A stretch of DNA of 64,000 nucleotides from a bacterium. GTDB lineage: Bacteria; UBA10199; 2-02-FULL-44-16; JAAZCA01. Location: positions 124,001 through 188,000 of the forward strand of contig JAJZQH010000001.1 of NCBI GenBank assembly GCA_021810905.1, in the 5' to 3' direction. The notes below the pieces were generated by a model. It was not told the origin of the DNA. It saw only the letters and a program-made list of their open reading frames with translations, and searched no databases. Each line of letters starts with the position of its first letter. The first letter of the stretch is position 1. This document shows, piece after piece, positions 18,239-35,605 of the stretch. The translations under genes and the position numbers were made by a program.

Positions 18239-18376
18239 GTTTCCTCCGCGGCCGGAAGGGCCTCAAGGCGCGGCAATATACAGAAGTGTTCTTCCATATC
18301 AAGTCCAATGGAGGACGCCACAAAATACTTGATTATTGACATGACACTGCACATCATCGCGAGCGAGGTGGAGTCG

Positions 18377-19036
18377 ATGGAACGCAAGCGCTCGATATAT
18401 CTGGCGATCGTAACCATGATCGGCCTGTTCTGGTTCTGGGGGCTCAGCATGCACGTTGGAACGCCGCCCGTGCTGCAGCTTATCTGGTTCAATCCGGATA
18501 CGACTTCCTACATGCGCAATGATCCTAATCCGGAAATCAAACACGAGTGGCGGCCGCTTTCGAAGATATCGCCTTATCTAAAAAGGGCCGTGGTGGAGGC
18601 CGAAGACGACCTTTTCTACGAGCATCAGGGTTTTGACTGGGAGGCGATGAAGCGGGCCGCTGAATACAATCTCAAAAAGAAGCGTTTTGCGCGCGGGGCT
18701 TCCACGATCACGATGCAGGTTGCACGCAACCTCTTTCTCACGCCGGACAAGTCTCTGCTGCGAAAGTTCCGTGAACTGCTTATCGCTCTGAAGCTGGAGC
18801 GGGAGCTTTCAAAGGATCGCATACTTGAAATATACCTTAATGTTGTCGAGTGGGGGAATGGTATATATGGCGCAGAGGCAGCGGCCAGGCATTACTTCGG
18901 CAAGAATGCAACAAACCTGACGCCGTATGAAGCCGCATATCTCGCGTCAATACTGCCAAAGCCTAAATTTTATGACCGGCATAGAGGCTCAGGATTTCCT
19001 AAACGAAGGGCTACATCGATCATGAGCAGGATATAG
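18377..19036 (+). CDS. mtgA: Monofunctional peptidoglycan glycosyltransferase
   Basis: Polymerises lipid II into glycan strands at the inner membrane. A short cytoplasmic N-terminus and one membrane segment (about residues 6-27) precede a GT51 domain with VEAEDDLFYEHQGFDWEAM (catalytic Glu in EDDLFYEH), RGASTITMQVARNLFL and KDRILEIYLNVVEWG. I prefer the ATG at 18377, with GGTGGAG just upstream, over an in-frame ATG at 18308. The 219-residue length fits MtgA and there is no transpeptidase domain. Confidence 0.93.
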   Translation: MERKRSIYLAIVTMIGLFWFWGLSMHVGTPPVLQLIWFNPDTTSYMRNDPNPEIKHEWRPLSKISPYLKRAVVEAEDDLFYEHQGFDWEAMKRAAEYNLKKKRFARGASTITMQVARNLFLTPDKSLLRKFRELLIALKLERELSKDRILEIYLNVVEWGNGIYGAEAAARHYFGKNATNLTPYEAAYLASILPKPKFYDRHRGSGFPKRRATSIMSRI

Positions 19037-19040
19037 ACAT

Positions 19041-19072
19041 AAAAAAAGGCTTGGCAGAGCCAAGCCCTTTTT
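19041..19072. terminator. Bidirectional terminator between mtgA and the histone gene
   Basis: Stem GGCTTGGC-AGA-GCCAAGCC (19048-19066) flanked by seven A on the left and a T-rich run on the right. It can end transcription of mtgA (plus) and of the small gene at 19090-19269 (minus). Confidence 0.9.
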
Positions 19073-19089
19073 ATACGCCAACGCGGAAT

Positions 19090-19269
19090 TTAGATGTCGC
19101 GATCCTTTACCGTCTGACGGCCATTGTCCTTGGCCCGCTCTACGGCCTTGTCGAGGACTTCGCGCACGGCAGTTGACAGCGCATCGATCGCCGTTTCGGA
19201 AGTCTGCAGGCCCTTCGTCTTCACGTAATCCTTCACCTTAGAGACGACCACCAGTGTTTCATTTGCCAT
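19090..19269 (-). CDS. Bacterial histone (single histone fold, HBb-like)
   Basis: The 59-residue protein is encoded from an ATG with a near-perfect AAAGGAGG site. The sequence begins MANETLVVVSKVKDYVKTKG (helix 1), continues with a long helix from SETAIDALS to ERAKDNG (helix 2), and ends in GRQTVKDRDI. That last motif matches the loop-2/helix-3 signature of archaeal histones (GRKTIKAEDI in HMfB) and of the Bdellovibrio histone Bd0055. The protein stops directly after the signature, so helix 3 is minimal. A basic K/R content supports DNA binding. Upstream on the minus strand is a TTGACA hexamer (19331-19336). It is flanked by a strong terminator and by tRNA genes. The fold assignment is from motif comparison by eye. 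Confidence 0.85.
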   Translation of the reverse strand: MANETLVVVSKVKDYVKTKGLQTSETAIDALSTAVREVLDKAVERAKDNGRQTVKDRDI

Positions 19270-19359
19270 ACATCCCCTCCTTTGGTTACGATTGGGTTTA
19301 GGGCCCTTATCTTGAGTATCGCCTGTTAGTTGTCAAATAAAAAAGAAGACACGGTTGAA

Positions 19360-19387: not shown

Positions 19388-19405
19388 TGCGCCGCCTTTA
19401 GATAT

Positions 19406-19478
19406 GGGCCGCTAGCTCAGTCGGCAGAGCAACGCCCTTTTAAGGCGTGGGTCCCCGGTTCGAATCCGGGGCGGCTCA
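19406..19478 (+). tRNA. tRNA-Lys (TTT)
   Basis: Cloverleaf folded by eye: acceptor GGGCCGC/GCGGCTC, D arm GCTC...GAGC, anticodon stem ACGCC/GGCGT with loop CTTTTAA (anticodon TTT), T arm CCCGG-TTCGAAT-CCGGG. CCA is not encoded. Confidence 0.96.
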
Positions 19479-19488
19479 CCCTGAAAAC

Positions 19489-19559: not shown

Positions 19560-19631
19560 GACCCCATCGTCTAGCGGTTAGGACACCGCCCTTTCACGGC
19601 GGCAGCACGGGTTCGAGTCCCGTTGGGGTCG
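19560..19631 (+). tRNA. tRNA-Glu (TTC)
   Basis: Acceptor GACCCCA/TGGGGTC, anticodon stem CCGCC/GGCGG with loop CTTTCAC (anticodon TTC), T arm CGGG-TTCGAGT-CCCG. CCA is not encoded. Confidence 0.96.
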
Positions 19632-19632
19632 C

Positions 19633-35171: not shown

Positions 35172-35489
35172 TCATTTCAATGTGTCGGCATCTTCGGATA
35201 CGTCTGCCAATTTCACCCCGTCGACGCGTTCCTTGAGTTCCTTGCCGACCTTGAAAAACGGGAGTCTCTTCGGCTTCACCGCGATCGATTCCCCTGTACG
35301 CGGGTTGCGGCCTTTATACGCGCCGTATTCCTTTACTATGAAACTCCCGAGTCCCCTGATCTCTATTCTGTCTCCACGCGCTATGGCCTCAACCATGGAG
35401 TCGAAAATGAGATTTACCACGTCCTCCGCAGTCTTCTTCGTTATCTGCGCCTTCGCAGCAATCGCTTCGATGAGTTCCGACTTGTTCAT
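35172..35489 (-). CDS. HU/IHF-family nucleoid protein
   Basis: The 105-residue DNA-bending protein shows the family core IEIRGLGSFIVKEYGAYKGR, with the NPRTGESIAV DNA-arm and KRLPFFKVGKELKERV. The RGLGSF-x-V and GRNPRTGE motifs favour an IHF subunit over HU. The C-terminal 13 residues are an extra acidic tail. ATG at 35489 follows GAGGTGA; a GTG one codon earlier is possible. It lies upstream of dprA-topA. Together with the histone at 19090 it shows that this organism has both nucleoid protein types. Confidence 0.93.
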   Translation of the reverse strand: MNKSELIEAIAAKAQITKKTAEDVVNLIFDSMVEAIARGDRIEIRGLGSFIVKEYGAYKGRNPRTGESIAVKPKRLPFFKVGKELKERVDGVKLADVSEDADTLK

Positions 35490-35605
35490 CACTCACCTCA
35501 GTGTAATCTGCGGATTTCACTGAAAAAAGTAGCAACTCGACCTCTCAGTGTCAAGCGGCATTTACCTGATTTGATCGAACGCAGCGAGTCGAAGGAGCAA
35601 GAAAG

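Follow-up and report, generated by a model that had tools for sequence, protein, structure and literature searches.

Known α3 histones

The α3 histones include FtF tetramers, whose interface is characterized by an arginine and an asparagine, and HBb-like dimers without these residues (PMC11390915). This Arg/Asn pair belongs to the FtF tetramer and is absent from bacterial dimers (PMC11390915, PMC12701072). HLp of Leptospira perolatii (PDB 9QT0-9QT2) is, according to the 2025 paper describing it, the only bacterial FtF histone to have been characterized, and its host bacteria are said to lack HU; Leptospira species carry no HU/IHF (PMC12701072). Its dimer–dimer residues are R49 and N53, plus R55, while R59, K21, K15, S14, and K17 provide 52% of the computed DNA-binding energy (PMC12701072). 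The dimer type is typified by HBb (Bd0055) of Bdellovibrio bacteriovorus (PDB 8CMP, 8FVX; PMC11317129, PMC10627809). Archaeal FtF histones include HTkC of Thermococcus kodakarensis (PDB 9F2C) and haloarchaeal proteins encoded on plasmids (loci L062-L064). A further published type is the ZZ histone (PMC11390915).

Gene organization and expression signals

The 64,000-nt window examined here carries at 19090..19269, on the minus strand and with the stop codon included, a gene for a 59-residue protein (MANETLVVVSKVKDYVKTKGLQTSETAIDALSTAVREVLDKAVERAKDNGRQTVKDRDI), which is backed by the ORF listing, by orthologs, and by a structural model. Its C-terminal residues are GRQTVKDRDI, in agreement with the initial annotation, and it is present as a single copy in the genome. 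A consensus ribosome-binding site, AAAGGAGG, lies 6 nt 5′ of the ATG (19276..19283, minus strand); GGAGG-type sites of a similar kind precede most of the histone homologs.

The sequence TTGACA at 19331..19336 (minus strand), 67 nt 5′ of the start codon, is a likely −35 element. TTGAC[AT] is found at −59 to −75 from the histone start in all nine genomes of the order; in 2000 mononucleotide shuffles, 0.68 of the nine genomes had it on average and never more than five. A generic promoter scan did not include TTGACA at 19331..19336 among its predictions, and the −10 region (about 19308-19315) is a poor match. At the level of the class, 15 of 23 FtF-type genes but only 2 of 25 dimer or ZZ genes have TTGAC[AT] in the 120 nt preceding them, and the loci possessing it at the same place are L002-L011, L014-L016, and L018. 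It is a promoter common to FtF-type genes and no general trait of the histones of these genomes.

On the 3′ side is a terminator hairpin at 19041..19074, whose stem occupies 19048-19066 and which has T-runs on both strands, and a hairpin followed by a T-run is found 3′ of the histone gene in 9/9 genomes of the order. The gene had been credited with a terminator of its own; the hairpin is indeed present, but it is common to the histone gene and a convergent gene resembling that for monofunctional transglycosylase (mtgA; 18308..19036, plus strand). The tRNA genes reported to adjoin the histone are those for tRNA-Lys (TTT; 19405..19481) and tRNA-Glu (TTC; 19560..19632), both on the plus strand and thus divergent from it, an arrangement kept in seven of the nine genomes of the order. 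The mtgA-like gene is close to the histone in five of seven order genomes compared, and thiolase, dnaJ-like, and dcd genes are close to it in all seven longer neighborhoods compared; these names were given by reading the sequences rather than through family searches. Elsewhere in the window, at 35172..35492 (minus strand), is the HU/IHF-family protein noted previously, one of five PF00216 loci in this genome (2.98 Mb, 99.5% complete).

Evidence for a histone fold

The 59-residue protein is a histone. A phmmer search matched it to HLp (E 5.5e-10, 42.2 bits), HBb (E 2e-9, 40.3 bits, a near tie), and HTkC (E 3.5e-5), and a profile built from 23 relatives recovered HLp (E 1.2e-24, 89 bits), HBb (1e-17, 67 bits), and HTkC (1.7e-11, 47 bits), followed by nucleosomal histones. 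The NCBIfam profile archaea_histone gave a match with an E value of 8.7e-6, under that profile's cut-off. The comparison to the Pfam family CBFD_NFYB_HMF, recommended with the initial annotation, also produced a match (E 0.0015), which falls slightly under the gathering score. A match of the same ORF to Flagellin_N (E 0.005) was judged to be helical noise.

The protein was modeled as a single chain using AlphaFold2. An alignment of five near-identical rows at first yielded a low-confidence model (pLDDT 70, pTM 0.41) in which helices 2 and 3 were fused; it was replaced by a second one from a nine-row alignment that took in four relatives from viral contigs. The latter exhibits a histone fold (pLDDT 86, pTM 0.60): helix 1 spans residues 3-18, helix 2 residues 25-48, and helix 3, a single turn, residues 56-58. 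The shortened helix 2 and a helix 3 of three to four residues are those of an α3 histone; the minimal helix 3 had been correctly recognized, but it is the norm for this group and not peculiar to this protein. The chain stops at I59, one residue past D58, and has no room for the 10-residue helix 3 of nucleosomal histones. The top nine Foldseek matches are all chains of HLp, HBb, and HTkC (TM 0.74-0.79); an HLp chain heads the list and is the only match to pass E 0.001. HLp thus ranks first among PDB entries whether searched by phmmer, the family profile, or Foldseek. By comparison, the nucleosomal histones HMfA and HMfB share the fold and the RxTxxxxD loop-2 motif, but their helices 2 and 3 are longer and their TM-scores to the query are 0.52-0.54. 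With a histone-like model and strong matches to HBb and HLp, the proposed bacterial histone fold stands.

Subfamily assignment

Bd0055 had been put forward as the functional model for this protein. Its subfamily is probably the wrong one, and the sequence features point instead to FtF. The unusual DNA-binding mode for which Bd0055 was invoked is itself in dispute, the straight-DNA filament having been challenged by a DNA-bending study (PMC11317129).

Residues R45, N49, and R51 of the query correspond to R49, N53, and R55 of HLp, the first two being R48 and N52 of the FtF profile. The RxTxxxxD motif of FtF histones is represented by R51, T53, and D58, and the helix-1 lysine (K16 of the profile) by K13. 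Dimers are recognized by the loss of R48 and N52, both of which the query retains, and by the motif RKTxxxD, where the query reads RQTVKDRD with Gln in place of the Lys found in 25/25 dimer or ZZ sequences of the class. Further resemblance to HLp lies in the RD clamp, the short loop 1, the Ser/Lys DNA contacts of helix 1, and a chain that ends one residue past the clamp Asp.

These features separate the histones of the class. All 23 class sequences with R45 have N49, and N49, R51, T53, K55, and D58 are invariant among them; by comparison, position 49 is Asn in none of the 25 dimer or ZZ sequences, and position 55 is Met in 23 of those 25. Loop 1 consists of five residues in 24/28 sequences with R45 versus six in 25/26 others, and the chain ends one residue past the clamp Asp in 25/26 versus 0/20 dimers; the HBb-type dimers of the class lack both R45 and N49 and possess longer C-termini. 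Since the sequences were sorted by R45, the invariance of this residue is circular; that of N49, K55, loop-1 length, and chain end is not.

The assignment is also supported when the two interface positions are set aside. In a FastTree phylogeny of 56 columns, from which columns 45 and 49 had been removed, the sequences with R45, among them HLp, HTkC, and the haloarchaeal proteins, form one split (support 0.83). Using profiles with the order held out and the same columns masked, all nine orthologs prefer FtF (86-92 bits) to dimer (71-83 bits). HTkC and the haloarchaeal FtF histones share R45 and this tree branch with the query, but they are archaeal and only 36-40% identical to it. The R/N signature is not absolute, since HTkC, a proven FtF tetramer, has Glu at the Asn position.

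An HBb-type dimer, bending DNA in the manner of HU/IHF, is the best-placed alternative, although we regard it as unlikely. Raw identity is 53-56% to HBb versus 41-43% to HLp, and in one-to-one scoring HBb ranks above HLp for two of the nine order orthologs. HBb shares with the query the α3 architecture with its truncated helix 3, the RD clamp, the SK motif of helix 1, and G50; R57, moreover, is a DNA-binding residue in HBb, where HLp has T61. The monomer is equally like HBb, and TM-scores do not split the HLp type from the HBb type; single-chain folds are alike for dimers and tetramers, and the subfamily therefore rests on sequence. There, HBb has Ser and Asp at the two tetramer positions occupied by R45 and N49, and K52 and M55 of its RKTVM are replaced in the query by Q52 and K55. 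HBb also possesses one more residue in loop 1 and a chain continuing past the clamp, an extension that the query lacks, and the dimer profile scores lower for every ortholog. Because HLp forms a long branch in the phylogeny, profile, tree, and signature were given more weight than raw identity.

Proposed assembly and DNA contacts

The five principal DNA-contact residues of HLp, R59, K21, K15, S14, and K17, are kept as K55, K17, K11, S10, and K13, and it is on this basis that a wrapping ring is proposed. We consider it likely that the gene product is a tailless FtF α3 homotetramer that wraps about 60 bp and acts as a nucleoid protein alongside HU/IHF. Two chains would pair via helix 2, and two such dimers would close to a ring via R45 and N49, which lie where helix 2 ends, and R51 in loop 2; the free C-terminal carboxylate, one residue past D58, probably joins the ring contact. 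About 60 bp of DNA would wrap the rim, presumably without sequence preference, held by S10, K11, K13, K17, T23, T53, and K55.

HLp differs in having an N-terminal tail and a more positive charge, and its S52, K54, T56, and T61 are not kept, the query having D48, G50, Q52, and R57. The query carries a net charge of only about +0.5 and lacks a basic tail, features that speak against strong DNA packing by this histone alone and suggest that it binds DNA more weakly than does HLp. Conservation of the TTGACA 5′ of the start codon suggests a housekeeping gene that is well expressed, as would befit a nucleoid protein working together with HU/IHF.

The near-zero charge also accords with a histone-fold protein that is no longer a general DNA organizer but serves in another role, such as that of a regulator or an HU/IHF partner. 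Five HU/IHF loci could cover the general work, and the gene stands alone among housekeeping genes with no chromosome-organization partner adjoining it. Yet helix 1 and the loops retain their main DNA-contact residues, and both the protein and its promoter element are strongly conserved across the order, such that we hold this reading to be very improbable.

The histone ORF is a real gene under purifying selection. An ortholog is found in each of the eight other genomes of the order (72-83% identity), and for the five of eight pairs with computable dS, dN is 0.09-0.17 versus dS of 1.0-2.4, a ratio of about 0.07-0.13; it is for these reasons that the ORF is not due to chance. A spurious ORF or contaminating archaeal sequence, which the small size and the Pfam score slightly under the cut-off might suggest, is refuted by this order-wide conservation, the kept neighborhood, and the purifying selection, and its probability is negligible.

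The FtF type is already known, and the 59-residue histone is a further member of it. It is a short, tailless relative of HLp that occurs order-wide and, unlike in the Leptospira hosts, is accompanied in its genome by five HU/IHF loci. It therefore allows a clear-cut test of whether the R/N signature by itself suffices for a wrapping tetramer, and also of the role of an FtF histone beside HU. One possible, though rather doubtful, extension is that a tailless, nearly uncharged FtF tetramer would be a second, specialized DNA wrapper beside a full HU/IHF set and that, in sister orders with FtF and dimer in one cell, two or three histone types would form a chromatin in which they divide the work or mix.

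Histones of the class, viruses, and plasmids

A histone match was found in 39 of 46 genomes of the class, in which FtF, dimer, and zinc-finger histones occur side by side. Among the genomes whose sequences were read, FtF is the sole type in 13 and dimer in another 13, one of which lies outside the class; 8 combine FtF with dimer, 1 has FtF, dimer, and ZZ, 1 combines FtF with ZZ, and 3 have ZZ alone, the ZZ label having been assigned by hand. FtF and HBb-type dimer occur together in nine class genomes, one of them also with ZZ (L036/L010, L037/L015, L038/L011, L035/L018, L040/L021/L050, L043/L025, L047/L049, L042/L013, and L026/L039). Five open frames of 164-183 codons (L050, L051, L052, L053, and L041) specify a Cys/His-rich, zinc-finger-like N-terminal domain and a C-terminal dimer-like histone fold ending in MGRDF or MGRDV, and resemble the published ZZ histones.

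No relative was found in the phage collection searched, and a search of viral contigs with a haloarchaeal/HTkC alignment gave no match. The plasmid matches seen are haloarchaeal (38-44% identity). FtF-like histones are present in two predicted-viral contigs (L082:1944-2177, 87 kb; L061:3959-4141, 196 kb), near a terminase-like and a RusA-like gene. Both possess the interface Arg, followed by Asn in L082 and Ser in L061, end one residue past the clamp Asp, and keep RxTxxxxD, unlike published phage histones. Two predicted-viral contigs of 44 kb (L080:1980-2165 and L081:1980-2165) encode histones that combine the dimer motif GRKTVMDKD with two traits otherwise found in the FtF type, a short loop 1 and a chain end that is likewise short.
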